A stretch of DNA of 64,000 nucleotides, taken from assembly GCF_000244975.1 (NCBI RefSeq), contig NZ_CM001440.1, positions 2,154,325 through 2,218,324 of the forward strand, written 5' to 3'. The DNA comes from Saccharomonospora cyanea NA-134 (lineage in GTDB: Bacteria > Actinomycetota > Actinomycetes > Mycobacteriales > Pseudonocardiaceae). Numbering within the stretch: position 1 is the first letter of the stretch; every line of letters starts with the position of its first letter. Below are positions 698 through 21,358 of this stretch, in pieces. The notes under the pieces are model-generated. The model saw only the letters and a list, made by a program, of their open reading frames with translations. It was not told where the DNA came from and ran no database searches. The position numbers were made by a program, and so were the translations under genes.

Positions 698-1075
698 TCA
701 GCGTGTCACGTAGGTGCTCAGGAGAGCTTGGACCTCGTAGACGTCGACTCCCTTGCCGAACTGCTTCGTGATCGGCTCCGAGTTTCCGGAAAGCCAGATC
801 TTCAGCTCGGCGTCGAGGTCGAAGGTACCGGCGGTCTCGACGGAGAAGTGGGTGATGCCGCGATACGGAATCGAGTGGTACTCGACCTTTCGGCCGGTCA
901 CACCCTGCTTGTCGACGAGGATCAGGCGCCGGTCGGTGAAGAGGAACGAGTCCCGGATCAGTTGGTAGGCGGCATGGATCTGCTCTCCCTGCGCCAGCAG
1001 CCGCCCGAACTCCCGCGTCGCCGCACGGGGATCGGTACGCGAAGCATTGCCCAGCATCCCGTCGAAAATGCCCAT
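698..1075 (-). CDS. PH domain-containing protein (bPH/DUF1696 type)
   Basis: A 125-residue cytoplasmic protein that reads as one bacterial pleckstrin-homology domain. The pattern FLFTDRRLILVDKQGVTGRK followed by SIPYRGITHFSVETAGTFDLDAELKIW is typical of the PF08000-like family. The start at the ATG of MGIFDGML is preferred over an in-frame ATG 28 codons upstream, because family members begin this way and a G-rich ribosome site precedes it. The gene converges on katG and has no operon partner. Molecular role is unknown; the family is thought to be a stress-related oligomeric scaffold. Confidence 0.85.
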   Translation of the reverse strand: MGIFDGMLGNASRTDPRAATREFGRLLAQGEQIHAAYQLIRDSFLFTDRRLILVDKQGVTGRKVEYHSIPYRGITHFSVETAGTFDLDAELKIWLSGNSEPITKQFGKGVDVYEVQALLSTYVTR

Positions 1076-3739: not shown

Positions 3740-6505
3740 TCAGCGACTCAACAGTTCCCCGAGTGTCTTCGCCGTGTCCGGATACCGACCGACCAGGCTG
3801 ACGCCGCTCGTGCCACTACTGCCCTCCCAGGTGGCGTCACAACAGAGGAGATTCGCGACCGCGTCACAGGTTGCCGGGTAGGCAGCCAACAGTGAGACAC
3901 CACGGCTGCGTTGCGCACGCGGTGCGGCCGGGATGACATCTTCCGCCAGCCACGGCGGCACCCACTCGTCGAGTTCCGCGAGCCTGCTGGGGAAGATTCG
4001 ATCGGACTCGCGAATCAGCAGCGGAGCCAGCTCGGTGCCTCCGGCCCTCAACGTGGTGATCAGGATCGGCAGCCACGGCAGCAGAACGTGATCCGGCAGC
4101 CGGGCGAACGCGTTCGACACCACCTCCACCACGAAGTCCACCAGACCCGGCACGGGTTCCAGGGCGTGCACGAACCCGCTGAGGTACCGCGGATACGCGG
4201 GCAGCACCAGCGGGTTGTCCAGCAGCTCGTCGCATGTCGCGCGCAACTCAGCCCGGGTGAGTTTTCCGAGCTGCACCTGCGCCGACCACAACAACGCCAC
4301 CTTCGCCGGTTCCTCCGGGTGAGACTGTGACACCGCCAGTTCCAGCTGTGCCCGGTCGCAGCCCAGCGACAGCGCCAGGCCTTCCATGCTGAACAGGAAG
4401 CCCAGCATCGCGGCTACCTGATCGACACTCGTGTGCTCGTCGGTGAACGCGGTCGGCAGCAGGGTGCAGTAGTGCGCGTAACCGGCTTTGACGAAGGACT
4501 CGATCCACGGGGGCAACACCGGTTCGCTGGTTCGGTAGAACGCCAACAGCCGCCGCACCCGCCGCAGCACCTCCGGTGCACCGTCAACGCTGCGTTCGGT
4601 CGCCAGGACCTGCAGCGCTCGGGTTCCCAGCTCGTCGGCGAGTCGGGAACCGCGCAGGTACAGGGTCGCGTCCTCGACGGCCGCCAGCACGGTCGCCGCG
4701 GTCGACCGCGAGTCGTAGGCGCTCCGTCGCAGGCGTTGCTCCATCACCTGCTCGACGCTGACGCCCTCGTAACCCAGCTCGATGAGTGCTCGCTGGTGCG
4801 TGCCCAGCGCGAGGTCCCACGACTCCTGGATCGGGCGTTCACCCAGCCGCCGTTGCCCCATGATCGGCCGTGCCGCGCCGTGCGGCAACAGATACCGCAA
4901 CATCCACAGCAGGTCCGAGCACGGTTCCAGTTCCGGGTTCGACGCGATGTCGAGCAACGCCCGTTGCACGCCGCGTCGCTGCAGGGAGAGCTTCAACGGC
5001 GCGAGCCGGTCGTGAACGTCGCGGGCCAGGGGTGGCAGCGCGTCGTAGCCGACCTGGCCCAGCCGGTCGCCGCCCATCATGATTTCGACGATGCGGCGCA
5101 CGTCCCGGCGTCCCGGCACGGCGTCCTTCTCGAGACACGTGATCGCCGCGTCCTGGAAGTCGTACGGGGTGGGCTTGATCCGGTCGCGCATCCCCGCGAG
5201 GAGGATCGACGTCTCGAACACGGCAATGGCGTCGGCGGTCGCGGCGAGGTAACCGTTGCGGCGCGCGGCCCGTACGACCTCCACGGACCAGTCCAGCAGT
5301 TCGGCTTCGTCCAAGCGGTCGAGCACAGGTGGCCGTTGCAGGAAGCCGGTCAGGTTGTCCGACGGCGTGAGGGCCGGCGCGGGGTCAGGAAGCGCCTTGG
5401 TCTTCTTCCGCTTGCCACCGCCGAGTTGCCCCGCCAGCCGGAACGGCTTCACTCGAGAGCGCTTGACGTTCTTCGCCCACTCCGTCGCAGCGATCGACAC
5501 CGAGCCGGGAGCCAAACCGAACTGTGCCTCGATGGCCGCATGGCTGGATGGGATCAGCCCGTACTGCCACGTGCTCGCGCTTCTGGGGCTGATGCCGAAG
5601 GTGTCGGTGCCGTCGACGCCGAACTCCGCGACCCGGCTGGCGGCGTGGAACGCGCCACACACGTAAAGGCCGTCCTCCGGCGCACCACCGGTCGTCGCGA
5701 GGTGCTCCCGTATGCGTGTCCACATGTACCGTTCGCGGTCCTCGTCCACCCGGATCCGGTGCGAGTCCCCGGGTGCGAGACGCCGGAACAGACTGCCGAT
5801 CAGGAACATCACCTGCCGGTAGGTGTCGTGGTCACTGTCCCCGAGCGGCAGTTCGACGTACTGGTGCCACCACTCCGACCAGTGCCGCACCCTACCGTGG
5901 TGCAGCAGGTGCTCCTCCAGCTCGGCGAACCGCGGCCGCAGATCACCGAGTTCGACGCCGATCGCGTCGCCGTGCAGCGCCTCCTCCTCGCGTGGCGCCG
6001 TATCCGGGTCGGCGGGCCTCGTGTCCGGCGGCGTCCGTCTCCGTTCCCACTGAAAGACGTGATCGGACGACCGGTCGACCAGGACCAGCTCGACGCCAGG
6101 CGTGTCCAACGCGTACGCGATCGCCTGGTACTCCGCCGAGGCCTCGGTGATCGGCGCGACCACCGACAGCGGAGCCCACTCGGGCGGAAACCCGTCGACC
6201 TCGCTCGCGAACGCCTGCACCGCGACCGGAAGCCGGCAGTTGCGGAGTTCGGTCAACAGCGGTGCCATGTCCTCGCACAGCTCCAGGTAGACCACCTTCG
6301 GCTGCTTCTCCCGCAGCCGGCGGGCCATCGCGGTGGCCGACGCGGGCGAGTGATGACAAACCGGGAAGATCTCCAACCGTTCCCGGATCGCGCGGTCGAC
6401 GTCGTCGACGATGCCGAGCAGGAGTCCCTCCAGGGCGTCCGGCCCGTCCGCGAACGCGGCGGCGGCCTCCCGTAGCTGCGTGCGCAGCGCATCGAACTCG
6501 GTCAT
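3740..6505 (-). CDS. DUF5682 family protein (last gene of SWIM-VWA-MoxR operon)
   Basis: A 921-residue soluble protein matching DUF5682, the family that travels with MoxR ATPase and VWA genes (E. coli yehM-like). The N-terminal third carries the hallmark FPVCHHSPASATAMARRL (His51-His52), YLELCEDMAPLL (Glu75), RERYMWTRIREHL (about 258-270) and YVCGAFHAAS (His287). This spacing recalls EreA/ChaN/TIKI-type hydrolase folds, although that link is my inference. The remaining 600 residues look alpha-helical and repeat-like, with no known catalytic motif. Its ATG overlaps the MoxR stop (ATGA), so it is translationally coupled as the last of five genes. Biochemical activity is unknown. Confidence 0.9.
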   Translation of the reverse strand: MTEFDALRTQLREAAAAFADGPDALEGLLLGIVDDVDRAIRERLEIFPVCHHSPASATAMARRLREKQPKVVYLELCEDMAPLLTELRNCRLPVAVQAFASEVDGFPPEWAPLSVVAPITEASAEYQAIAYALDTPGVELVLVDRSSDHVFQWERRRTPPDTRPADPDTAPREEEALHGDAIGVELGDLRPRFAELEEHLLHHGRVRHWSEWWHQYVELPLGDSDHDTYRQVMFLIGSLFRRLAPGDSHRIRVDEDRERYMWTRIREHLATTGGAPEDGLYVCGAFHAASRVAEFGVDGTDTFGISPRSASTWQYGLIPSSHAAIEAQFGLAPGSVSIAATEWAKNVKRSRVKPFRLAGQLGGGKRKKTKALPDPAPALTPSDNLTGFLQRPPVLDRLDEAELLDWSVEVVRAARRNGYLAATADAIAVFETSILLAGMRDRIKPTPYDFQDAAITCLEKDAVPGRRDVRRIVEIMMGGDRLGQVGYDALPPLARDVHDRLAPLKLSLQRRGVQRALLDIASNPELEPCSDLLWMLRYLLPHGAARPIMGQRRLGERPIQESWDLALGTHQRALIELGYEGVSVEQVMEQRLRRSAYDSRSTAATVLAAVEDATLYLRGSRLADELGTRALQVLATERSVDGAPEVLRRVRRLLAFYRTSEPVLPPWIESFVKAGYAHYCTLLPTAFTDEHTSVDQVAAMLGFLFSMEGLALSLGCDRAQLELAVSQSHPEEPAKVALLWSAQVQLGKLTRAELRATCDELLDNPLVLPAYPRYLSGFVHALEPVPGLVDFVVEVVSNAFARLPDHVLLPWLPILITTLRAGGTELAPLLIRESDRIFPSRLAELDEWVPPWLAEDVIPAAPRAQRSRGVSLLAAYPATCDAVANLLCCDATWEGSSGTSGVSLVGRYPDTAKTLGELLSR

Positions 6506-7614
6506 GACAGGGTGGCGATCGCGTCGCGGCCGCCCTCCAGGAAGTCCGGCCAGTCTCCACCTTCGTCTTTGCTGCGCGGCTCGACGACACCGTGCAGGTA
6601 CTTGTTCAGGATGGCGAGGTCCTCGGGTTCACGCCGCGCCAGCGAGCCGACGAGGGAGGAGGCGAGGGTGCGGGCGGTCAGCGCGCGCTCGCCGAAGAAG
6701 TTGCTGTGCAGGATCGCGTCCTCCAACACACCGATCTGTTCGGCGGTGGACAACGCGGACTCCAGCTTCTCGTCGTCGCTGCCCGCAGAGGCAGCCGAAG
6801 CGCGCAGGTCGGCGAAGCTGCGCAGCAGCACGTCCAGCAGCGTCGGCGGCACGTCCAGCTCGATCTGGTGGCGACGCAGCAGCTCTTCGGTGCGGAAACG
6901 GACGATCTCCGCCTCGCTCTTCTTGTTCGTCACCACCGGAATGCGCACGAAGTTGAACCGACGCTTCAACGCCGAGGACAGATCGTTGACACCGCGGTCC
7001 CGACTGTTGGCGGTCGCGATGATGGAGAAGCCGGGCTTGGCGAACACGATGTTGTCGCTGTCCAGCTCGGGCACCGAGATGTACTTCTCCGACAGAATCG
7101 AGATCAGTGCGTCCTGCACGTCGCTCGTGGAACGGGTCAGTTCCTCGAAGCGGCCGATGGCACCCTGTTCCATCGCGGTCATGATCGGTGACGGGATCAT
7201 CGACTCCCGCGACTGGCCCTTCGCGATGACCATCGACACGTTCCACGAGTACTTGATCTGGTCCTCGGTGGTGCCGGCCGTGCCCTGCACCACGAGCGTC
7301 GAGTTCCGCGAGATCGCGGCGGCCAGCAGTTCGGCCAACCAGCTCTTGCCGGTGCCCGGGTCACCGATCAGCAGGAGGCCGCGGTCGGACGCCAGCGTGA
7401 CGATGGCCCGCTCGACGAAACTGCGGTCGCCGAACCACTTCTGCGAGATCTCCCTGTCCAGACCGTCGGCCCGCTCGGAGCCCAGAATGAACAGGCGGAC
7501 CATCTTCGGAGACAGTCGCCAGGCGAACGGTTTAGGGCTGTCGTCGATCGACTCCAGCCAGTCCAACTCCTCCGCATACTTGACCTCGGCGGGAGCGCGC
7601 AACAAGTCCGACAT
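6502..7614 (-). CDS. MoxR-type AAA+ ATPase
   Basis: A 370-residue AAA+ ATPase of the MoxR/YehL kind. Visible motifs are Walker A GDPGTGKS (84-91), Walker B around GAIGRFEELTR (151-161), sensor 1 IATANSRDRG (199-208) and an arginine-finger segment ALKRRFNF (215-222). MoxR proteins form hexamers that remodel partner proteins, normally in concert with a VWA-domain protein encoded beside them, exactly as here. The ATG of MSDLL is preferred; an in-frame TTG two codons earlier is also possible. AAAGG lies 8 bases upstream of that ATG. The VWA gene ends 18 bases upstream, and the stop overlaps the DUF5682 start. Confidence 0.93.
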   Translation of the reverse strand: MSDLLRAPAEVKYAEELDWLESIDDSPKPFAWRLSPKMVRLFILGSERADGLDREISQKWFGDRSFVERAIVTLASDRGLLLIGDPGTGKSWLAELLAAAISRNSTLVVQGTAGTTEDQIKYSWNVSMVIAKGQSRESMIPSPIMTAMEQGAIGRFEELTRSTSDVQDALISILSEKYISVPELDSDNIVFAKPGFSIIATANSRDRGVNDLSSALKRRFNFVRIPVVTNKKSEAEIVRFRTEELLRRHQIELDVPPTLLDVLLRSFADLRASAASAGSDDEKLESALSTAEQIGVLEDAILHSNFFGERALTARTLASSLVGSLARREPEDLAILNKYLHGVVEPRSKDEGGDWPDFLEGGRDAIATLS

Positions 7615-7632
7615 GCACAAGACCTTTCTGTG

Positions 7633-8985
7633 TCAGGCGGTGAGGAAAGCTTTGAGTTCGTGCACGAGTCTGCTGACATGGCCGGAGATCACCGGCGTGC
7701 CGAGATCCTTGAAACGTTCCCGGAACCAGGGGTTGACAGCACCACGGCCGGTGCTGCTCACCGAACCGACGGGAATGAACTTCGAGCCGGACCGATGAAT
7801 CGCGGTCATGGAGTCGAACAGCTGCTCGACTCGCGATTCGTAGAAGTCCGAGATCCACACGACGACGGTGTTACGCGGTTCGGGGATCTTCGGTCGGAGC
7901 AGCTCCATGGCCACCATGCCGTCGGTTCCGCCGCCGAGGTTGGTCCGCAACAGCGTTTCGAACGGGTCATGGACCCAGGGCGTGAGATCGAGAGCTTGTG
8001 TGTCGTAGGCGAGAAGGTGTACGTCCACCTTCGGTAGCCCCGCGAAGATGGACGCGAGGATCGCGCAGTTGACCATCGAGTCGACCATCGACCCTGACTG
8101 GTCGACGACCGCGATCAACCGCTGCGGCGTCGTCTTACGTGCGGTATGGCGATAGTAGAGCCGATCGACATGGAGCCGTTCCTCGTCGGGGCTCCAGTTG
8201 ACCAGGTTCTTCCAGATCGTGCGGTCGACGTCGAGGTTGCGGAACACCCGTTTCGGCGGAACCGAACGATCCGCTGTGCCGACGGACGCCTTCGCCACCT
8301 CGGTGCGCAGGACCTCGGCGACCTCGTCGACGAACCGGCGGATCAGTGCCTTGGCGTTGGCGAGCGCCATCCCGGAGAGGTTGTTCTTGTCACGCAGCAG
8401 CTGCTCGATCAGCGACATACTCGGGGTCAGGTGTGCGGCCAGTGCGGGATCAGCGAGGACCTCGCGCAGGTGCATGCGCTTGATGAGGTCGGCCTCGAGA
8501 TTCGCCAACTCAGGGCCGATGTCCGGGAGCAGCGTGTCGAGGTCGGAGCTCGTCCCACCACCGCTGGTCCTCTGCCCCGAACGGCCGCCGCGCAGGCTCC
8601 CCGGTGCACACCCCAGCGCTCGTTCGAGCCAGCCGGTGTCGGCCTGCCATTGCGACAGCTGTTCGGCGGTCACCGTGCCGGAGCGGTTGGCGAACACGTT
8701 GAGCAGCACCTTCGAGACGAGTGCCGCGCGCGACACCTCGGCGGCGCCGTCGCGTTCCGCATCGGGGTCCCGTACCATCAGGTGATCGAACTCCGCGGCC
8801 AGTTCGGGGTGACGCTGCACCACCGCGTCGACGGACACGTGAGGGTCCAGCAGCGCGCTCGGCAGGCCGATGTCGTCGACGACGGCGACACTTGCCGCCT
8901 CCAGGGACGCCCGCTCCTCAGGATCGAAGAGCCGCGCCAGGAGCCGCCAGTACAGGACCTGGCGCCGGTTGTCGTGGGACGTCAC
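7633..8985 (-). CDS. VWA domain protein, MoxR partner
   Basis: A 450-residue cytoplasmic protein. The C-terminal half is a von Willebrand factor A domain with the metal-ion-dependent adhesion site DQSGS (295-299), the GGGTDG loop (351-356) and VVVWISDFYE. The N-terminal half is helical. E. coli YehP has the same type of architecture. MIDAS-containing VWA proteins recruit substrates to MoxR ATPases. The GTG start overlaps the TGA of the gene before it (GTGA). Longer in-frame extensions upstream read through the neighbour's coding sequence in another frame and are rejected. It is the third gene of the five-gene operon. Confidence 0.92.
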   Translation of the reverse strand: MTSHDNRRQVLYWRLLARLFDPEERASLEAASVAVVDDIGLPSALLDPHVSVDAVVQRHPELAAEFDHLMVRDPDAERDGAAEVSRAALVSKVLLNVFANRSGTVTAEQLSQWQADTGWLERALGCAPGSLRGGRSGQRTSGGGTSSDLDTLLPDIGPELANLEADLIKRMHLREVLADPALAAHLTPSMSLIEQLLRDKNNLSGMALANAKALIRRFVDEVAEVLRTEVAKASVGTADRSVPPKRVFRNLDVDRTIWKNLVNWSPDEERLHVDRLYYRHTARKTTPQRLIAVVDQSGSMVDSMVNCAILASIFAGLPKVDVHLLAYDTQALDLTPWVHDPFETLLRTNLGGGTDGMVAMELLRPKIPEPRNTVVVWISDFYESRVEQLFDSMTAIHRSGSKFIPVGSVSSTGRGAVNPWFRERFKDLGTPVISGHVSRLVHELKAFLTA

Positions 8986-10373
8986 TTGCGCAACAACCTT
9001 CCCGCCCGCTCCCGCAGCACCGTGACGGCGGTGGTAGCGGCCTTCTCGGCCTTGATGCCGTTCTTGTCGGTGGTACCCCCGGCCCACGCTCCAGCCTGGA
9101 CCGCAACACCCTTCTTCCGCTTGACCGTGGTTTCCACAGCGAGCGGCTGGACGACGAACGTGCCGTCATCCCAGCGGAGCAGTCCGATACACGCGGTCGA
9201 CGCGGCGACTCCGTCAGGGGTGAGCGGCCCAGCGACCGGGAGACGGTCGGTCTCCACGGACAACCGATGCCCGGCGACAGTGAACGTCAGCACGTCGTCG
9301 TCTTCGTCAGCGGTGTAGCCCTCCAGGAAGACCGGCACGGCGATGTGGGCAGGGTGTCGGTTCAGCGGAGCGGTCGCCGAGGTGGTCGCGGTGGGCAACA
9401 CCACGCGTGCGGTGGTGAACGGCTCGGCGGGTTCCCCGGGGCGGGCGTGCTCATCGCTCCAGAGCAGATCGCCTTCGGAGGTGAGTGGCATGCCGTCGAC
9501 GTCCATCGACCGGCCCTCACTGACGGCGGTCAGAAGTGACAGGTGCGGGCGCAGCAGCTGCCAGATGCCGGCGCTGACGACGGAGTCGGGTTTCGGCGCC
9601 GACACACTGGCACGCACGAGCCGGGGTGTGCCGCCGTCCTCGGGTTCGAAGACGGCGTGCACCTGTGCCTGCGCGGCTGTGGCGTGCTCGTGCATGTCCA
9701 CACCCAGTGGCAGGAGTCGTCCGGTGACCGTTTCGATCGCGGGCACGTCGGCCGCGCCGGGCAGTGTCAACACCATTGCGCGAGACCACAGATCACCCCA
9801 GCGGCGAACCGGGACGCGGTCGAGCATTGTGTCGGGACAGGAAGCGGCGAGTTCCGCGGCGAAGCCGTCGAGCAGCACAGCGAGACGGCGTAGCTCCGGA
9901 TCGGGCAACATCGCGGAGACGACCTGAGCCGATCCGGACACCAGGTCATGATCGATGCCCCGCCACCCGGTGCGAGCCACATCGGACAGCCAGGACCGTG
10001 CCGCCCCAAGGAGGTTCGGCATCTGCCGCTGCCCGGGCTCGCTCGCGATCTCCTCGCCACGCGGACGGCCTGTGGCCTCGTCGATCCGTGCCACCAACGC
10101 GTCGTGGACCGAGCCGAGCAGTGCGGTGCGGGCGGCGGCGATCACGACGAGGTGATCCTCGCTCGCAGCGCCCACCGCCACCTTCTCCACGGCTTCGGCG
10201 ACCGGGCCGGCGAGCGGTGTGCCTGCGACACCGTCCGCCAACTCGGTCAGTGCCGCGACCTGGTCGGGCTGCGGACGCAGCAGCCCGTCGACGAGTGTCC
10301 GATCACAGGCATCGACCACCGCCAACGCCTCGCCGAGTCCGGCGATATCCCCGGCGAGCAGGTCGGCCCGCAT
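8982..10373 (-). CDS. Conserved companion protein of the SWIM/MoxR/VWA operon
   Basis: A 463-residue protein with no catalytic motif I can name. It has an alpha-helical N-terminal half (around ADLLAGDIAGLGEALAVVDA), a conserved-looking centre VPVRRWGDLWSRAMVLTL, and a beta-rich C-terminal half ending in a Lys/Arg tail. Proteins like this follow SWIM genes in such loci; in E. coli-type YehQ the SWIM finger and a long partner region are one polypeptide, so this could be the detached remainder (inference). Its ATG shares bases with the SWIM gene's TGA stop (TGATG) and its own TGA overlaps the VWA start, so it is tightly coupled. Function unknown. Confidence 0.8.
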   Translation of the reverse strand: MRADLLAGDIAGLGEALAVVDACDRTLVDGLLRPQPDQVAALTELADGVAGTPLAGPVAEAVEKVAVGAASEDHLVVIAAARTALLGSVHDALVARIDEATGRPRGEEIASEPGQRQMPNLLGAARSWLSDVARTGWRGIDHDLVSGSAQVVSAMLPDPELRRLAVLLDGFAAELAASCPDTMLDRVPVRRWGDLWSRAMVLTLPGAADVPAIETVTGRLLPLGVDMHEHATAAQAQVHAVFEPEDGGTPRLVRASVSAPKPDSVVSAGIWQLLRPHLSLLTAVSEGRSMDVDGMPLTSEGDLLWSDEHARPGEPAEPFTTARVVLPTATTSATAPLNRHPAHIAVPVFLEGYTADEDDDVLTFTVAGHRLSVETDRLPVAGPLTPDGVAASTACIGLLRWDDGTFVVQPLAVETTVKRKKGVAVQAGAWAGGTTDKNGIKAEKAATTAVTVLRERAGRLLRK

Positions 10374-10873
10374 CACACCACCGCCCTGGTCGGCGGGAAC
10401 CACTGCATCTCAGGCAATGGCGCGGTGGTCGGAGTGAGCTCCAGGTAGGCGAGGTGACGTAGAAACCTGCTGAAAACGGTCGCGGCGGCGCTGCTGTCTG
10501 CCGGTGTGGGCTGGGTGTTACTCATCTCCAGGGCGATCAGCTGTCCGGTCACCTCGTCAGCGACGTCGACCCGCAGATAACGGGCAACCCGCTCGCCGCC
10601 GTACTGCAGCACCGCCTCGTTGAGCAGGGCCGGAATGTGGTTGCAGAACGTACCCCGCGCACCACCACAGGGCCGATTGTTGTTGGTACTGCAGGAAAAG
10701 GCGTAACTGCTCGCCTCCACTGAGGAGACGTAGACCCGCCCGAGATCCGATCCGCTCGACACCACACCCTGCACACGCCCGTCGGTCAACTCGACGAACG
10801 GGACCTTGGCCAGCTTGCGTGGGCGAGCGGGCAGTAACACCCGCGCCGTGCTGGATCTCTCCCAAACGGACAA
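10373..10873 (-). CDS. SWIM zinc-finger protein, first gene of the operon
   Basis: A 166-residue protein with a SWIM-like finger. The ligands are Cys61, Cys69, Cys77 and His79 in FSCSTNNNRPCGGARGTFCNH. The canonical SWIM pattern is CxC-xn-CxH; here the first two cysteines are seven residues apart instead of one, an atypical spacing. SWIM fingers bind DNA or proteins. The TTG start at 10873 follows GGGAGA at a sensible distance, so a non-ATG start is accepted. It leads a minus-strand operon SWIM, companion, VWA, MoxR, DUF5682 spanning 10873 to 3740, with overlaps or an 18-base gap at each junction. Confidence 0.85.
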   Translation of the reverse strand: MSVWERSSTARVLLPARPRKLAKVPFVELTDGRVQGVVSSGSDLGRVYVSSVEASSYAFSCSTNNNRPCGGARGTFCNHIPALLNEAVLQYGGERVARYLRVDVADEVTGQLIALEMSNTQPTPADSSAAATVFSRFLRHLAYLELTPTTAPLPEMQWFPPTRAVV

Positions 10874-11296
10874 CGCACTATCTCCCTTGGCTCACACCGC
10901 TCACCGTGCTCCCCGGCGAGGCTCCACAGGAGACTATCGGCCACCACCGACAATTCTGCTGCCGAGAGCGGGGAGGCTCGGGGCGCGGCCGCTGCGCGCT
11001 GTTCCCTCGGGTGTACCAGTGATGACAGGGGACCGGCAGACCGGCAGACCGGCAGATCAACGCCGTGGTCGCTGCCGGAGTGTGGTGTGGTCGCGAGAGG
11101 GCGGGTGGGTCAGCCTCTGCCGATGTGTTACAAGGACGGCGTCGGCGCCGGGGCGACAGCGACCAGTGGTGCAGGCACAGCTGTCGACTCACGCTGGAAC
11201 CCCGCGACCGCGTCGAAGTACCAGCGTGAGCCCGTGCCGATGCGGCAGGTGCTCGCCGAGGGACCTGGACAGCGGTGTACTCGTGTCCTCGCCCGC
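10874..11296. other. Gap between Wadjet and SWIM operon; likely promoter region
   Basis: 423 bases separate the end of jetD from the SWIM gene, both on the minus strand. It should contain the SWIM-operon promoter unless transcription runs through from jetD. The only structure I see is a short tandem repeat at 11031-11054. Open frames across it are not convincing. Confidence 0.5.
11031..11054. repeat. Three tandem copies of an 8-base unit
   Basis: GACCGGCA is repeated three times head to tail without error. It lies 158 bases upstream of the SWIM gene start, where an activator or repressor could bind. Whether it is regulatory or simple slippage is not known. Confidence 0.8.
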
Positions 11297-12529
11297 TCAC
11301 CCCTGGCCGTCCACGACCTGCAGCAGCCGGGTCACGGCGTGGGCGAGGGGGATGGCTTCCTGCTCGATCCGGCGGAACGGGGTGGGGCCCGCGGTCGCGA
11401 TGGTGTCGTACGCGGTTCTTTCGGCTTCGGTCAGGTGTGGCAAGAGCTCCGGTGACGGCTTGATAGGACGACCGTTCTTGTCGTGGTCAACGCCGTACTC
11501 GGCGTAGTGATGCAGGTCGGTGGCGTCCATGAGGATGGAGGTGACCGGCTTCGCCGGAGCCCCGTCCGGTGCGGGTGCGGCCAGAGTGCCGCGAAACCGG
11601 TCGAGGATCGCGTACCCGTCCGCATCGATGTCGCCCCAGTAGACGATGTGCTCCGCGGCACGGATCCAGGGCACTCCTCCCAGGAGGGCGGCTGCGGCTT
11701 TCCCACCGCCCTCGACCACGATCGTGTCCCTGACCGGCGGGAACCAGAGGCGGGAGTCTCGGTTCTCCACGACGAGGACGACGCGCGGCCGGTAGGCGAT
11801 GTCGTGCACGTCACCGGTTGTCCAGGCGTCGTGCCTGCGGCGGCCCGATGCAGCGTGGTCAGGGTCGACATAGGTCAGGTGCGTGACGGTCAGCCGGGGC
11901 CGGACCTCTTCCCGGACGTCACGTCCAGCGACATCGCGCAGCAGTGCGCCGTGGGAGTCCAGCCATTTGGTGTGCATACCTGGGATCGGGAGTTGCCGCA
12001 GGGTCCAGGTGCCGGCATCGGGGTGTTGCCGTAACCAGGTCACGGCGCCCAGCAGCACCTCCACGTCGATGGCCCGAAGACGGTAGGCAGCCCGGAGCGT
12101 GGCCGGGGTGAGAGTCGCGCCGGCGGCTCGCAGCGCCGACGCGAGCTCACGGGCACGGCGGATGTCCACTGTGGGTGGTTCAGCACCGGTGCGGGTGTCG
12201 GCGAGGAGCGTGACGGCACCGTCCAGATCCGCCTTGAGCGTCGCGGGGAAACCACCGGCGACTCCACGGATGGTCACCGCTTTGCGAACGATTTCGACAC
12301 CGGCGGGAAGCCGGCTCGCGAACTCACGCCAACGCCTGTGCCACTCGTGCCATGCGGCGTGCCCGAGCTGCTCGACGGCCTTGCCCGTCGACACGCCGGG
12401 GCGAAGCGGAACGGAGAAGATGACCCGGTCGCCGACGCCGAAGCCCGCGCACACGGCTTCCGCCCACTTCTGGCCGAGCTTGCGGCGGACCGCCGTCAGG
12501 GCGTCCTCCGGGTTGACGAGTGCGCTCAT
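11297..12529 (-). CDS. jetD: Wadjet protein JetD, Toprim-like nuclease
   Basis: A 410-residue DUF3322/DUF2220 protein, the nuclease subunit of Wadjet. The N-terminal region (about 1-180) is the DUF3322 part. PIPGMHTKWLDSH (181-193) precedes the Toprim-like domain, with the acidic motifs VENRDS (Glu255) and WGDIDADG (Asp300, Asp302). In characterised type I systems this subunit cleaves small circular DNA after JetABC extrudes it. All expected acidic residues appear intact. It is the last gene of jetABCD; its ATG overlaps the jetC stop (ATGA). A 423-base gap follows before the next operon. Confidence 0.95.
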   Translation of the reverse strand: MSALVNPEDALTAVRRKLGQKWAEAVCAGFGVGDRVIFSVPLRPGVSTGKAVEQLGHAAWHEWHRRWREFASRLPAGVEIVRKAVTIRGVAGGFPATLKADLDGAVTLLADTRTGAEPPTVDIRRARELASALRAAGATLTPATLRAAYRLRAIDVEVLLGAVTWLRQHPDAGTWTLRQLPIPGMHTKWLDSHGALLRDVAGRDVREEVRPRLTVTHLTYVDPDHAASGRRRHDAWTTGDVHDIAYRPRVVLVVENRDSRLWFPPVRDTIVVEGGGKAAAALLGGVPWIRAAEHIVYWGDIDADGYAILDRFRGTLAAPAPDGAPAKPVTSILMDATDLHHYAEYGVDHDKNGRPIKPSPELLPHLTEAERTAYDTIATAGPTPFRRIEQEAIPLAHAVTRLLQVVDGQG

Positions 12530-15500
12530 TCGTCACCAACCCCGACCAGAGGCTTCGCCCACGATCGGCCCTCGGAGTTCTTGAGAATCAGGTACTCCGC
12601 GTCCACGTGTGGCTCGATCGCGCTGTGCTTGTCGTTGGGAGCGCCGATGATCAGCTGGAAACCGAGTCCGCGCCACGCGCCGATGGCCCGGCCGGTGAGG
12701 CGCGCGTCCGCCTTGATCAGCGCTTCGTCGAGGAAGATGGGGGCGTAGCGGGGACGCTCGGCGCCCGCGTCACCCAGCTGGTACCGCAACGCGGCACCGA
12801 CGATGAACGCCACCAGTTCCTGCGACTCGCCCCCGGACTTCTCGCCGATGTGGTCGTACACGGCGACGTGCCTGCCGTCGAGGTCCCGTTTCTCGGCGCT
12901 GATTCGGACGTGGTTGCGGACGTCGACGAGGTCGGCGAAGTCGGGGGCGGTGCGGCGGATCCGGTCGATCACCTTGGCCATCCGGTGATAGGCGCGTTCC
13001 CGGTCGGCGTCCGTTTCCGCCCGGTCGATGAAGGCGCGAACGTCGCGCAGCTCCTTGCGGAACCGGGCGCGCACCGTGGAATGGCTCTCCTGCGGGTCGA
13101 TGCGCAGTCGGTGGTTGTCGTCGGCGAACGGCAGTTCGGCGAGGATGCGGTTGACCGGGTCGATCCGGTCACGGATCTCCCGAACCGCGGCGGCCAGCTC
13201 GCTGTCCAGGCCGGTGAGGTCGTTGCCGGACAGTTTGAGCAGACTGTCCCTCCACTCGGCCTCCAGCTCGTGCAGACCGCTGGTCTCCAGGTCGGTGAGT
13301 ACGCGGTCGAAGTCGCGGTACGAGGCGTCCGGGTCGGTACCGAGGTTCGGGTTCGGCCAGCGTTCGAGGAACGTCGAGAACGTGTCCTCCAACGCCTTCC
13401 TCGACCGGCCGATCGTCTCCGTCGCCGAGCGTCGGTCGGCGACGAGTCTGTCGGTGGCCAGTTTCACCGCCGCGTCGAACTCCGCGAGCTCCGTCGCCGG
13501 GGTGGCGCTGTCCGGGACGCTGTCGAACAACGCCTCCAGGTACTCCTGGTGTTCCGGAAGGACGACCGTGCCTGTCTCCGCGGCCGCGTCGAGCGCCGAC
13601 TGGGCGCGGTCCACCTCGTCGACGGTCGCCTCCCAGCTCTCGCCGAGCACCTCCACGGTCTTCTTCTGTTGACCTGCGCGCTCGGTGAGGTCCCTGACCC
13701 GCTCCTTGAGCTCATCCACCTGTCGCTGCAGCTGGTCGATCTTCGGATTGCCTGCGCGGACCTCGTCGACGACACGGTTCCACCGGTCCCGTTCCGCCTG
13801 GACCGACTCGACGTCCACCTGGTCCCACGACAACTCGGTCAGGGTCCGGTAGGCCGCACGCCTGGCCTCGAACGAGTTGAGCTCGTCCTCCGCCCGCGAC
13901 ACCCAAGCGACGGCCTCGTCGAGGCGGTGGCGCGCGAGGCCGATCCGATGGTCCAGGTCGGCGAGCAGCCTGCTGTTGGTGAAGCCGAGCACGTTGGCGC
14001 GGCCGTGGCCGCCGTGCGCGCCCCGACTGCCTTGCGACATCTGCCCGTCGATCGTGAGCGCCTTGGGGTACTGCGCGAGCAGCCGGGGTGTCTCGACACA
14101 GACGAAGTCGAACCGGCGGGCGAGCTCGCTCTTGAGCCAGGCGGTGAACGGCGACGGCCGGTAGTCGAGCCTGCCGGGGAGCGTCTTCGCGTTGAGTCCG
14201 ACCTCGTCGCGCAACCCCGTGCGCACGCCCTCGAACTGCACTCGTCGAGCTGTCCTGACCTTGTTGATGGCCTCTCGGAACGCGTTCAACCGTCCGATGT
14301 CGATGAGCATCCGCGTGGCGAACCCGCCGAGTGCCAGGTTGAACGCCTCGCGCCACGGCTCGAACTCGGTGCTGACCTCGATCAGCTCGCCGACGAACGG
14401 CAGGTCGTCCGGCGTCAGGCCGGCGGCCTCGGCCCACGCCGCGCGAGCCGCGTGCAGCTCGGTCGGGATGTTCCCCCTCCGCGACTTGACCGCCTTGTGC
14501 TCGGCGCGCAACTCGGCCAGTTCGGCTTCGGTTTGCTTCTTCTCCGCCATCGCCTCGGCGAACCGGGTCTGGGCGGTTCGCCTGGCTTCCGTGTCGGCCA
14601 GGGACCGATGGGCCGTCTCGACCAGTGCGGCGAAGTCCTCGCCGGTCGACACCGTAGTGCCGAGGGTGTCGAGTGCCCGGTCCAGCTGCTTCCGTGCTCG
14701 TTCGACGTCGAGCAACCGTTGCTCGACGCCACGCAACTCCCGGAGCGCGGTGTCCAGGCGGTCACCACCGGAGGCGCGAAGCGTGTCGGCCGCCCCTTCG
14801 CACTGCGCTTCGGTCGCTTCGACGAGGGCGTTGGTCTCCCTCAATTCCTCCTTGGCCCGGCGGTGCCGTCGGGCCAGGTCCCTCTCGGCCGCGCGGAGGA
14901 GATCGAGCCGACGTTCATGACGCCACAACGCGGCAGGGGACGACGCCTCGCTGAACGAGCCGACCGCGTCGATCAGTCGCAGCTGTTCCTCCGCTTCGTC
15001 GATGGCGCGGCGATGCTCGCGGATCGGAGTCAACGCCTTCACCTGCTGGCGAGCGACGATCATCCGCTTCCGGATTTCGGACAGCTCGTCGAACTGCTGG
15101 ACCACCGCGTCCGCAGTGGCCAAAGTGGACGGTTCTTCGAGGACCATCGTCTTGTACAGGGCGTCGACGGTGGTGATCTGCTGGCCGGCCTGGATCCGAC
15201 CGAGCAGCGCGACCGCCTTGTGTCCGTCGCCCGCGGCGCCGATGCCGAGCGTGGTGTGGAGCCGTGCGGTGAAGTCCCGGTCGGTTTCGAAGCAGGTCAA
15301 TCCGGTCGCCTCGACCTCGGTGCGGGCGAGCCGCTTGCCCGCCGGGCCTTCCAACGCCCGCAGTGAGTAGTGGTGGTCGCAGGTGGCGCGCACCGCCACG
15401 ACGTCGTCGAGGGTGCGGGCAGACGACGGAACGTACCAGGCGCGGAGCGCCGTGAACTCGGCACCGGTGTGATCGACCCAGGTCATCGCGATGGCCGACC

Positions 15501-15870
15501 AGGTATCGCGGCCGTCTCCGCGCAGCACCCGCACCTTCGTCTCACCGTCAGCTCGGGACTCGTCGAGCTTGCCGCGCGCATAGGAGAGGATGTTGCGCTG
15601 ATCCTTGCCCCGGGGTCTGCCGACCACCCCGCCGTTGGACGCCCCGTTGAAAGGAGTCGTATGCGGCATGAGCAACGCGATGTAGGAGTCCATCAGCGTC
15701 GACTTACCTGAGCCCGAACCGCCACTGAGCAGGGTCGCGCCAGGCGCGAAACGCACGGTGTGATACCCGTCGTAGCCGCCCCAGTTCACCAGTTGCAGGT
15801 CCCGTGCCACCCACTGCTGGCCCCGCGATGCCGCCGGGATCAACCCGAACAGCGTGTCGATCATGCTCAC
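12526..15870 (-). CDS. jetC: Wadjet protein JetC, SMC-like ATPase
   Basis: About 1,114 residues, an SbcC/MukB/SMC-like ATPase. The N-terminus has Walker A GSGSGKST (51-58) after [19 protein letters not shown] long coiled-coil centre, rich in Glu/Arg/Leu, runs from about 250 to 930 and is broken by a hinge-like region ([19 protein letters not shown]). The C-terminus has the ABC signature [10 protein letters not shown] (near 1012) and Walker [14 protein letters not shown] (near 1045). It is the loop-extruding motor that inspects circular DNA. A GTG start at 15870 is chosen because it overlaps the jetB stop (GTGA) and has CGAGG seven bases upstream; ATG at 15864 is the alternative. Confidence 0.95.
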
Positions 15871-16535
15871 GCCGTGGCCTCGTTTCGTTCGCGCAACCAC
15901 TGTTCCAACTCGGCGAGCTTCGCGGTACTCAGCACGACCTCCACCAGCGGGGTGATCCGATACCGGCCCGCGGACTCCTCGACGAGCAGGCCTTCGGTGA
16001 CCAGCCGCTGCACCGCACTGCGAACCTCCTGTTGGGTGCGGGCCAGGTTGTGGTCGTTGGGATCGAAGTAGGTCAGCACGGTCTGTTCCAGCTCCTCGAT
16101 GTCCACGCGTGCGGACGTCTCTCCCGTGCCGCGTTCCCGTTGGAAGACGGTCCGCAGGTGCACCAGCACCAACGTCTCGGCCCGGTTGTAGGGCTCGTCC
16201 CTGAGCAGGATCGGCACGTCCAGCTCCGTCGAACGCACCTGCTGCTTGTACGCGATGCCCCGGTCGTGATCGACCACAAGACGGACGAACAGGTCGTGCA
16301 TCCGTGACTCGATGATCTGCTGGTTCTCCAGCAACGTGCGCCACTGCGCCGGGTTCTTCTCGGCCAACAGGAACTTGCGACGCAACAACTGGACCAACAC
16401 CCGCCGCACGTCCGCGTCGAGCGTGCCCGCGTCCCCGGGGAACAACTCGGTCGGATCGTCCTCCATCGGAACCGGGTCGATGAACCCGGCGGTCGAGCCG
16501 GCCGACCAGCCGTCGCCGGGATCGAGCTCACTCAT
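15867..16535 (-). CDS. jetB: Wadjet protein JetB (DUF4194, KITE-like subunit)
   Basis: A 222-residue DUF4194 protein, the MukE/KITE-type partner that bridges JetA and JetC. Typical segments are [19 protein letters not shown] near the N-terminus and the winged-helix-like end [19 protein letters not shown] followed by [12 protein letters not shown]. Its ATG overlaps the jetA stop and its stop overlaps the jetC start, so stoichiometric coupled synthesis is expected. The length is usual for the family and I see no damage. Confidence 0.94.
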
Positions 16536-18031
16536 CGGTCACCGCTTTCGTCAGCGCTCGCCGGGTTCGCCGCCACCACACCACCGAGGGCGAACCGTCG
16601 CCTGGTCCCGTCGGGTCGGACCGTGTCGACCATGGCGACCTCGGCTGTCTCGGTCATCCCGGAGTCGTGTGCGATCTCCAGCAAACCGAGCAGGTCGACC
16701 GGCCGCTGGAGATCCTCGTCCGCCGCGCGGAAGGCCGCCGCGACATCCACGTTCTCCGCGTCGCCCGCGAACGTCACCAAGTGCGCCTGCAGTGCGGCGT
16801 ACCGGGGGCCACCCCATGCCCGGGTGTCCGCGGTCGTCACGTCCTCGGTCTCATCCCACTCACGCAACGGCGCGGGCGGCTGCGGCGGCCGTAGGTCACT
16901 CATCCGCTGCCGCAGGTGCCCGACGTCGGCCACCGGTAGACGACGGAGCGGCTCGACGGCCTCGCCGCGGCGTGAACCGGGGACCCACTCGTGGAGACCG
17001 GCCATCACGTTCCTCAGCAGCTCGTCGACCTGGCGGTCCCGCATCGGATCGTGGTTGCGTACCTGGGTGGTGATCACATGGGATGCCTGCCGCTGCGCGG
17101 TCAGCACCTCACTGACGCCCTGCTCGACCCGGCGCGAGATCTCGGTGAGCTCCCGCCGCTGCTGCTCCGGCAGCAGATCGGTGAACCTGTGCCGTAGCAC
17201 TGTTCGCAGCTGACTCCACAGGTTATGGATCTGCGCCGGATCACCGATCAGCCGCAACGCCCCCGCGAACGCACGGCCCTCCGGGGTCGCGTCCAGGATT
17301 CGCTTGCCGCGATCCAGGTACTCCCGGAGGACCTCACCGGTCGGCCGCACGTCGTGCCGCAGCTCGGCGACGACGTCGCGCTGGACGGCTTTGATCGACT
17401 CGGCCACGCGGGCGAAGTCCGCCGGCAGTTCCCGCGCCAGGTGCAGCACGTTCTCGGCCGCCTCAAGCAGCTGCTCGTCGGCGACCGTCTCGACTGTGCC
17501 GCCCCGTTCGAGCCGGGTGAGCTCCTTCTGACGTTGCTGGATCTCTTCGTGGAGACGCGCGATCCGGGCCATCACGTCCGGATCGGCGTCCTGCGCGAGC
17601 CGCTCGATCGCTTCCAGCAGTGTCCTGACCCGCGACTCCGACACCCTGGTTCGCACTCCGCCGACCCGGCCCGCGACCTCGAGCGCACCGACGCCGTACG
17701 CGGACAGGCGGTACACCTCGACGTCGTCGTCGGACACCTGCCGCACCAACCAGCCCGCCTGCACCCACTGCCTGCAGAGGTCCCGCGCGTTCCCAGCCGG
17801 CAACGGCTGGTTGTCCTCGTCCCCGTAGCCCGCGGCCCGCAACTGGTCGAGGGCGTCGTTGATCTCCGCGTGCGCGTCCGCCACCGCCACGCTCGGCCGC
17901 TCCGCGGTGAAGACCATCGCCAGCACCGTCACCACGAACGGCGCGTGCGTCTGGTGAAGCAGGGCGAGCATCGGGTTCTGGAACGCCCGGAGCGCACCCT
18001 GGTACGCGCCTTCTATGCCTCGTGTAGCCAT
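16532..18031 (-). CDS. jetA: Wadjet protein JetA (DUF3375, kleisin-like subunit)
   Basis: A 499-residue DUF3375 protein, the MukF/kleisin-like subunit of the Wadjet complex. The N-terminal winged-helix region contains [20 protein letters not shown], and the middle (about 140-330) is coiled coil ([20 protein letters not shown]). The ATG of [11 protein letters not shown] is preferred over an in-frame start 21 codons upstream, whose extra residues are Arg/Pro-rich and atypical. It is the first gene of the minus-strand jetABCD operon. A divergently oriented methyltransferase lies upstream with a palindrome between them. Confidence 0.94.
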
Positions 18032-18119
18032 CGCCGCGTAGCGTACGGCGTGAGTCCGACACGGTCGGTGACCGCGCCGCGTTGGCGGGATCACGGCTGG
18101 TCACACCTCCAGCAGATCT

Positions 18120-20035: not shown

Positions 20036-21358
20036 GTGACCGAACCCAATCTGATCGACGAGGCCGCCGACGAAGCCGTCACGCTGACGAGCGAGCTGAT
20101 CCGCATCGACACCACCAACACGGGCGATCCGGCGACGCTGGCCGGCGAGCGCGAGGCCGCCGAATACGTGGCCGAGAAGCTCACCGAGGTCGGCTACGAG
20201 ATCACCTACGTGGAGTCCGGCGCGAAGAGCCGGCACAACGTGATCGCGCGCCTGGCGGGCGCCGACCCGAGCCGGGGTGCGCTGCTCGTGCACGGCCATC
20301 TGGACGTCGTACCCGCCGACCCCTCCGAGTGGTCGGTTCACCCGTTCTCCGGAGCCGTCCAGGACGGCTACGTGTGGGGCCGCGGGGCGGTGGACATGAA
20401 GGACATGGTCGGCATGTCCCTGGCCCTGGCGCGGCACTACAAGCGCCACGGCATCGTGCCGCCGCGTGACATCATCTTCGCGTTCCTCGCCGACGAGGAG
20501 GCGGGCAGCCAGTACGGCGCGCAGTGGCTGGTCGAGCACCGACCGGAGTTGTTCGAGGGCGCGACCGAGGCCATCAGCGAGGTCGGCGGTTTCTCGATCA
20601 CGCTGCGTGACAACGTGCGTGCCTACCTCATCGAGACCGCCGAGAAGGGCATCCGCTGGATGACGCTGCGGGTGCGTGGCACGGCGGGCCACGGCTCGAT
20701 GCTGCACCACGACAACGCCGTCACGAAGCTGTCGGAGGCCGTGGCACGGCTCGGCAACCACCGGTTCCCGCTCGTTTTGACCGACTCGGTGCGCGAGTTC
20801 CTCGCGGGCGTCACCGAGATCACCGGCTGGGACTTCCCCGAGGACGACATCGAGGGCGCGGTGGCCAAGCTCGGCAACATCTCGCGCATGATCGGCGCGA
20901 CGCTGCGTGACACGGCCAACCCGACCATGCTCAACGCCGGGTACAAGGCCAACGTCATCCCGTCCACGGCCGAGGCCACCGTCGACTGCCGCATCCTGCC
21001 CGGTCGGGTCGAGGCCTTCAACCGCGAGCTCGACGAGATCCTCGGCCCGGACATCGAGAAGGAGTGGCTGGAGCTGCCGCCGGTCGAGACGACCTTCGAC
21101 GGTGCGCTGGTCGACGCGATGAGCGCCGCCGTGCTCGCCGAGGACCCCGGTGCGCGCACGCTGCCGTACATGCTGTCGGGAGGCACCGACGCGAAGGCGT
21201 TCCAGAAGCTCGGGATCCGCAACTTCGGGTTCGCGCCGCTGAAGCTGCCGGACGACCTCGACTTCTCGGCGCTGTTCCACGGCGTCGACGAGCGCGTTCC
21301 CGTGGACGCGCTGAAGTTCGGCACACGCGTGCTGGACCGGTTCTTCCGCAACGCGTGA
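20036..21358 (+). CDS. M20/M25/M40 family metallopeptidase
   Basis: A 440-residue cytoplasmic di-zinc hydrolase of the M20 family (ArgE/DapE/carboxypeptidase relatives). Metal-site motifs are LVHGHLDVVPAD (His88, Asp90), WGRGAVDMKDM (Asp120) and FLADEEAGS (Glu154, Glu155). The dimerisation domain follows at about 205-320 (RVRGTAGHGSM), and a C-terminal LSGGTDAKAF and ALFHGVDERVP carry the last ligand His. The GTG start is preceded by AGGAAG five bases away. Members cleave an amino-acid or acyl group from small peptides or acylated amino acids; the exact substrate cannot be told from sequence. Confidence 0.93.
   Translation: MTEPNLIDEAADEAVTLTSELIRIDTTNTGDPATLAGEREAAEYVAEKLTEVGYEITYVESGAKSRHNVIARLAGADPSRGALLVHGHLDVVPADPSEWSVHPFSGAVQDGYVWGRGAVDMKDMVGMSLALARHYKRHGIVPPRDIIFAFLADEEAGSQYGAQWLVEHRPELFEGATEAISEVGGFSITLRDNVRAYLIETAEKGIRWMTLRVRGTAGHGSMLHHDNAVTKLSEAVARLGNHRFPLVLTDSVREFLAGVTEITGWDFPEDDIEGAVAKLGNISRMIGATLRDTANPTMLNAGYKANVIPSTAEATVDCRILPGRVEAFNRELDEILGPDIEKEWLELPPVETTFDGALVDAMSAAVLAEDPGARTLPYMLSGGTDAKAFQKLGIRNFGFAPLKLPDDLDFSALFHGVDERVPVDALKFGTRVLDRFFRNA

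Follow-up and report, generated by a model that had tools for sequence, protein, structure and literature searches.

A candidate DNA-damage promoter upstream of a five-gene MoxR-VWA-DUF5682 operon in Saccharomonospora cyanea NA-134

What does an operon that joins a MoxR ATPase to a large DUF5682 protein do for its host, and does its place beside a Wadjet defence system tell us? We addressed this for five genes in a 64,000-nucleotide stretch of the Saccharomonospora cyanea NA-134 genome (NZ_CM001440.1, positions 2,154,325 to 2,218,324; this whole stretch is called the window, and its own numbering is used below). In order of transcription, the genes encode a SWIM-like zinc-finger protein, a companion protein, a von Willebrand factor A (VWA) protein, a MoxR AAA+ ATPase and a DUF5682 protein (Table 1). 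A preliminary description had proposed that they form an undescribed system and, from their position next to jetABCD, that they act in defence or in a DNA-related process. We find that the locus is an actinobacterial variant, here called type D, of a widespread MoxR-VWA-DUF5682-SWIM family whose function is unexplained. Judging from the sequence upstream, the operon most likely belongs to the LexA/RecA-independent (PafBC/RecA-NDp) DNA-damage regulon, and this promoter evidence, which the preliminary description did not have, supports a DNA-related role. The family itself was already known, though functionally unexplained; the regulatory lead for the type-D operon is new.

The five open reading frames (ORFs), all on the minus strand, and their junctions were found as first described. 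The stop codon of the SWIM-like gene overlaps the companion's ATG by one base (10373), the companion and VWA genes overlap by four (8982-8985, with the start picked by the ORF caller), 18 bases lie between the VWA and MoxR genes (7633 to 7614, again with the caller's start), and the MoxR and DUF5682 genes overlap by four (6502-6505). Pfam recognized DUF5682 (E=5.8e-28; 98 bits against a cut-off of 26), AAA_5 (2.8e-37) and VWA_CoxE (1.6e-29), while the companion and the SWIM-like protein matched nothing in Pfam or PADLOC and nothing above cut-off in NCBIfam. Every locus compared keeps the identical gene order (45 of 45; in two the DUF5682 gene is interrupted), which puts the set far beyond chance. 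Of 80 further actinobacterial loci, the best 80 of at least 293 confirmed matches, 77 had all five genes in order; the other three, where the contigs may end, showed the first three or four genes only. Junctions were short or overlapping at most loci, with VWA starts approximate. The companion was present in 6 of 61 relatives, in 49 of 397 genomes of the order, in 2 of 12 genomes of the genus and, counting partial and weak matches, in 59 of 151 genomes of one other genus. We fetched 127 loci, which, less three duplicates, gave 124 loci in 65 neighbourhood groups by our own criterion. This large number of groups suggests that the operon relocates between genomic sites as a unit. At L071 and L077, other sequence interrupts the DUF5682 gene.

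Regulation is where these loci were most informative. We searched the 300 bp upstream of the operon in 64 of the 65 groups de novo for shared 8-mers, compared with background. The commonest, TGTCAGTG, occurred in 32 of 64 groups and in 0 of 64 in the background, and together with overlapping words it clustered about 80 bp before the start. We take this motif to be the RecA-NDp promoter, with the consensus taken as tTGTCRGTG-N8-TAnnnT. The full motif was exact in 64 of 125 upstream regions (the 124 loci and the window) and had at most one mismatch in 90, across 46 of the 65 syntenic groups. In the control, the upstream regions of flanking genes, the corresponding figures were 1 and 8 of 1218; random 300-bp windows of the fetched loci held an exact motif in 9 of 4300 cases, among which there may be true sites. 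A LexA box was also sought upstream and was not enriched (zero or one mismatch in 0 of 124, two mismatches in 32 of 124, versus 3.5% and 28% in the control).

The 5.4-Mb genome contains four exact sites, the window's own, TTGTCGGTG-GTGGCCGA-TAGTCT (10953-10931), among them, compared to none for a reversed-pattern control; with up to one mismatch there are 24 sites versus four. Sixteen of the 24 lie within 300 bp of a gene start set by the ORF caller. From the 16 site-linked proteins we picked ten by eye for a family scan, leaving six unscanned, and seven of the ten were an NAD-dependent DNA ligase, an RNase_T exonuclease, a proteasomal ATPase, a Y-family polymerase, a tyrosine recombinase, UvrA and a RadA-like ATPase. 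Because the proteins were selected by eye, the share of repair genes among them is inflated. What the operon has in common with the RecA-NDp/PafBC regulon, known in Actinobacteria as a repair-gene regulon, is this motif at about -80, which repair genes of this genome have as well. PafBC acts through the RecA-NDp motif, which is also found in other Actinobacteria (PMC6789036, PMC8223512; here and below, PMC accessions stand for passages of those papers). PafBC is reported to upregulate most mycobacterial DNA-damage genes. We did not meet DUF5682 operons as members of this regulon in the literature searched.

The motif also precedes DUF5682 operons of other types. A second such operon of the same genome has it 84 bp upstream with one mismatch, and among 14 operon starts of other types, this one included and all assigned by us, five had an exact motif and three had one mismatch.

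Several points weigh against membership in the regulon. The passages of PMC6789036 and PMC8223512 name the motif but print none of the consensus letters used here. Two or more mismatches were found in 35 of the 125 upstream regions (L016, L018, L057, L079 and L086 included), so control by this promoter is either not universal or lineage-dependent; among the loci listed, those of genus g40 and its kin seemed to lack the exact form. Eight of the 24 genomic sites have no gene start inside 300 bp, and three of the ten scanned proteins were a glyoxalase-like protein, a protein of no family and an acetyltransferase (L272, L274 and L291). Among the other DUF5682 types, six of the 14 starts were worse than one mismatch, and the five exact cases (three SWIM-DUF5691, one DUF4132 and one fused type) all come from a single genus, g99.

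Two minor observations concern these sites. Upstream of the SWIM-like gene, L057 and L079 have in common a TTTGTCG...GATACAACT stretch, possibly a form of the promoter peculiar to a lineage. The genes behind the RecA-NDp-like sites at L272, L274 and L291 may be further regulon members, or their sites may be due to chance.

How is the type-D operon related to other DUF5682 operons? These range across E. coli, actinomycetes, Deinococcus and Rhizobium, and in a sample of the phylum, 21 of 296 genomes had any DUF5682 protein; all five weak-scoring type-D carriers in that sample (G000, G050, G095, G438 and G571) have a further DUF5682 system besides. The preliminary description was right to see a resemblance to E. 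coli yehLMPQ: YehL, YehM, YehP and YehQ are MoxR, DUF5682, VWA and SWIM proteins encoded in a single gene run, and YehL is a named subfamily of MoxR ATPases (PMC3893208). The two nevertheless differ. The E. coli order begins with MoxR and the type-D order with SWIM, the window's DUF5682 protein is only 19% identical to YehM, and the SWIM protein is divided into a SWIM-like protein and a companion that may or may not be related to YehQ. S. cyanea itself encodes an E. coli-like operon outside the window (DUF4132(WGR)-MoxR-DUF5682-VWA-SWIM; L020, 4663-14541), which is the second operon mentioned above. In other actinomycetes, SWIM and DUF5691 genes adjoin MoxR-DUF5682-VWA, and on Rhizobium and Deinococcus plasmids SWIM, DUF5691, MoxR, DUF5682 and VWA genes all stand in a row. 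These operons share four families with type D, but their order is different and their fifth gene is DUF5691 where type D has the companion. Methylosinus and Hymenobacter records list a SWIM-DUF5691-MoxR-DUF5682 set without a VWA gene. A further architecture, in which DUF5682 is fused to VWA, occurs in some actinomycetes: L119, L126 and L129 each have both matches within a single ORF of about 1170-1254 aa, with a large gene and one of DUF4132 type next to it (the Pfam check was made on L119 only).

Calling the system undescribed was fair with respect to function, but public records already carry such gene sets with their members named one by one. We met no function for DUF5682 operons in the open-access literature searched. 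The genes that adjoin yehLMPQ belong to the MolR family. E. coli MolR is stated to be a member of the LexA regulon, and in D. radiodurans, of another phylum, depletion of the DNA-damage repressor DdrO raises DUF4132 and WGR genes (PMC8533742).

Other likenesses lie in the ATPase and its partner. NorQ-NorD and RavA-ViaA likewise pair a MoxR AAA+ protein with a VWA protein that has a metal-ion-dependent adhesion site (MIDAS) (PMC13036017, PMC3893208), but their client differs, and the type-D operon has DUF5682 and a zinc-finger/OB-like pair in addition. VMAP-type MoxR-vWA ternary conflict systems have the same core pair (PMC7159879). Here, in contrast, Pfam gave no VMAP match, no effector domain is fused to the VWA protein, and the third component is fixed rather than swapped.

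The MoxR-VWA pair described at first is intact in its motifs. The Walker A, Walker B and RR-finger residues of MoxR were invariant in 45 of 45 sequences (44 of the 45 loci plus the window, one short sequence being left out), and the sensor stretch nearly so. The DxSxS of the VWA MIDAS was invariant in 42 of 42 sequences (41 of the 45 loci plus the window, again without short sequences), and the third-loop residue was T in 12 and N in 30. For DUF5682, the residues kept in all of 18 diverse sequences include HHxP, E75, E125, D144, W213, RE257-258 and G284xxH287. A profile comparison with TraB (hhalign) scored 31.8 versus at most 20.4 in 200 column shuffles; the alignment covers R...GxxH, and when forced to full length it places both GxxH, the E and the R in register, with P48 of the window's protein at the place of the first G. 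Set against a TraB-like domain are the hhalign probability of just 10-17%, an AlphaFold model that is poor in that domain (mean predicted local distance difference test score, pLDDT, of 64 overall), and the lack of a TraB-type protein among the 50 Protein Data Bank (PDB) matches listed for the model. The structures that the model did match were HEAT-like or other helical-repeat proteins.

The zinc finger proposed in the preliminary description is SWIM-like only. Its ligands, C-x7-C...C-x-H, were invariant in 47 of 47 sequences, but they depart from the standard C-x-C...C-x-H, and Pfam gave no SWIM match; because of this departure we call the operon a variant of the YehLMPQ family. In L115 (4659-6605) the SWIM-like protein and the companion are naturally fused in one 648-aa ORF, which makes it probable that the two function together as a unit. 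The companion's predicted model is good (pLDDT 86) and suggests that it contains oligonucleotide/oligosaccharide-binding (OB) folds. Of its ten best PDB matches, all with E of at least 0.028, five were SSB, CST or RPA proteins, and in a viral library the four best of the top ten matches (best E 5.5e-4) were to baculovirus LEF-3, a single-stranded-DNA binder. Counting against this assignment, the other five PDB matches were to unrelated proteins, attachment glycoproteins, carbonic anhydrase and CheA among them, and the LEF-3 matches had TM-scores of at most 0.26 and root-mean-square deviations of 10-12 A.

We also looked for a sequence relative of the companion. The first comparisons that treated it as part of YehQ were not significant, and a richer profile gave P=0.011 (score 29.8 versus at most 25.0 in 150 shuffles). 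It had no detectable homology to DUF5691, no relation to type-A SWIM proteins was found, and a PDB sequence search with the companion and DUF5682 profiles returned nothing useful. Phage records searched for the companion gave no match. One putatively viral IMG/VR contig (L269) encodes a relative at 46% identity.

The promoter lead suggests roles for each component of the operon. We propose, at roughly even confidence, a DNA-damage-induced machine in which MoxR-VWA remodels or activates DUF5682 as a hydrolase, and in which the SWIM-like protein and the companion direct this hydrolase to single-stranded DNA or nucleoprotein. The regulatory step of this scheme rests on sequence evidence, and we infer the other steps. 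PafBC is said, in the title of a 2025 paper, to be triggered by single-stranded DNA. DNA damage, or the single-stranded DNA of an invading element, would activate PafBC, which in turn would use the motif at 10953-10931 to switch the operon on. The site is there in the sequence, and the operon is quite probably inducible through it; we would put this higher but for the single genus behind the exact motifs of other types and the choice of scanned regulon genes by eye. The SWIM-like finger and the OB-fold-like companion might then bind single-stranded DNA or a nucleoprotein target, which the weak fold match makes conceivable though somewhat doubtful. A MoxR hexamer and its MIDAS VWA partner would remodel DUF5682, and so activate it or load it with metal, as NorQD does with its target; what is known of the family makes this step about as likely to be right as wrong. 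Finally, DUF5682, with its GxxH-E-R-GxxH TraB/TIKI-type pattern on a HEAT-like scaffold, could act as a hydrolase, probably on proteins at damaged DNA, a suggestion drawn from the motif pattern that we regard as tentative and rather doubtful.

Extended to the whole DUF5682 family, E. coli yehLMPQ included, the scheme becomes a long shot: a damage-induced AAA+ machine in which SWIM/OB proteins would recognize single-stranded DNA or nucleoprotein and MoxR-VWA would power a protease-like hydrolase of TIKI/TraB type that attacks proteins stuck on DNA, such as crosslinks or the replication complexes of invaders. If true, the DUF5682 machine would be a bacterial counterpart of DNA-protein-crosslink proteolysis. 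With the promoter in front of type D, and also of some operons of three other architectures (the exact cases there being from one genus), an orphan family becomes a testable part of the DNA-damage response.

The preliminary description had instead argued from the neighbour. Wadjet is indeed directly upstream, with 423 bases between it and the SWIM-like start, and the two also adjoin in G004, a genome of the same genus, as would be expected of an accessory module co-inherited with Wadjet as one functional unit. However, G004 is the only one of the 127 fetched loci, besides the window, with a similar Wadjet near the module (the query was the genus's own type I, so distant Wadjets could be missed, and the sequence fetched took in about 9-12 kb on the upstream side of the module and 3-4 kb on the downstream side, at some loci less). 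In the genus, jetC is found at 88-100% identity in 5 of 12 genomes, with a 28% match in a sixth, versus the companion in 2 of 12. Wadjet occurs without the module in G001, G003 and G005. In G003 it does so at the identical site, between the PH-domain and M20 peptidase genes that enclose both Wadjet and module in the window and G004; in G001 and G005 these markers are arranged otherwise. Even in G004 a methyltransferase gene sits between the two. On the locus counts and the comparison of sister genomes we reject the partnership with Wadjet, which is largely refuted and can be all but discounted. The place beside Wadjet reflects a locally defence-rich, variable neighbourhood, not a functional partnership, and the idea that position next to jetABCD tells the operon's function finds no support. 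Ten large cargo proteins near Wadjet, hand-picked from four sister genomes, included four CRISPR type I-E proteins (Cas3e once in G004 and twice in G005, Cas8e in G004) and one protein with a NACHT domain (G001).

A defence role could also be independent of Wadjet: in a stand-alone anti-phage or anti-plasmid system, the SWIM-like/companion pair would sense foreign nucleic acid and MoxR-VWA would release DUF5682 as an effector. We consider this unlikely. It would suit the operon's patchy presence, the spread of its 124 loci over 65 neighbourhood groups, and the CRISPR I-E or NACHT genes that G001, G004 and G005 have close to this Wadjet; moreover, MoxR-vWA ternary systems have been proposed as conflict systems (PMC7159879), and an association of vWA-MoxR-VMAP genes with CRISPR loci has been described (PMC10910872). 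Yet PADLOC models match the five proteins only as generic AAA or VWA, the effector is not swapped among the 45 loci, and a DNA-damage promoter fits repair at least equally. Nor were defence genes enriched next to the homologues. For one member of each of the 65 groups we took, on either side, the first or the second neighbour (80-900 aa), listing 121 and scanning 119 after leaving out two cut by locus ends. The control was 120 random genes out of 20 stretches, whose places in 20 genomes were chosen by hand. The neighbours matched 29 PADLOC families versus 49 for the control, in a coarse test in which a chance CRISPR III locus raised the control, families rather than proteins were tallied, and 25 families were listed of the 29 and the 49. 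Single matches, for example to AriA (2 members, best 2.1e-24) and WYL (1e-51), speak for defence; the 25 commonest of 145 Pfam families among the neighbours were mostly metabolic, transport and regulatory. Neighbourhood evidence beyond the genus does not favour a defence role, which keeps some probability because invading DNA also yields single-stranded DNA and the operon is patchy and mobile. Quite unlikely, in our view, is a role in metal insertion or assembly, with a CoxE-type MoxR-VWA chaperone maturing a DUF5682 metalloenzyme for general stress metabolism rather than for DNA. The VWA_CoxE domain with its intact MIDAS and the invariant His, Glu and Asp residues in the 18 DUF5682 sequences would agree with it, as would the remodelling by which NorQD inserts metal into its target (PMC13036017) and the origin of the name MolR in molybdate use (cited in PMC8533742, PMC4245954). 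But it leaves the SWIM-like and OB-like proteins and the DNA-damage promoter unexplained, and the molybdate genes moeA and moeB showed no joint response with the DUF4132 genes of D. radiodurans (PMC8533742).

Table 1. Features of the operon and its surroundings (window coordinates unless a locus handle is given)
Feature	Coordinates	Strand	Basis
SWIM-like zinc-finger protein, 166 aa, C61-x7-C69 ... C77-x-H79	10373..10873	-	ORF, alignment
Companion protein, 463 aa, with helices in the N-terminal part followed by beta-rich regions; predicted model OB-fold-like	8982..10373	-	ORF, model
VWA_CoxE-type VWA protein, 450 aa (ORF-caller start), MIDAS DQSGS / GGTDG / SD	7633..8985	-	Pfam
MoxR-type AAA+ ATPase (AAA_5), 370 aa, Walker A GDPGTGKS, Walker B RFEE, RR finger	6502..7614	-	Pfam
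DUF5682 protein, 921 aa; N-terminal TraB/TIKI-like motif set (HH51-52, E75, R257, GxxH 284-287), C-terminal HEAT-like helices	3740..6505	-	Pfam, alignment, model
Putative RecA-NDp/PafBC-type motif TTGTCGGTG-N8-TAGTCT, 80 bp upstream of SWIM-like start	10931..10953	-	sequence; 8-mers de novo
Wadjet type I jetABCD, neighbour, judged outside module (jetA start 18094 or 17971)	11297..18094	-	Pfam, PADLOC
Variable Wadjet neighbourhood	window 698-1075 to 20036-21358; L249/L250 (G003), L253/L012/L013 (G004), L247 (G001), L251/L252 (G005)		sister-genome comparison
DUF4011/AAA_11/AAA_12/REase_MTES_1575 protein, 1912 aa	21421-27159	-	PADLOC PDC-S37 (5e-271), Hhe (1.6e-123)

The last protein in Table 1, a PDC-S37/Hhe-like helicase-nuclease, is a probable second defence gene near Wadjet.

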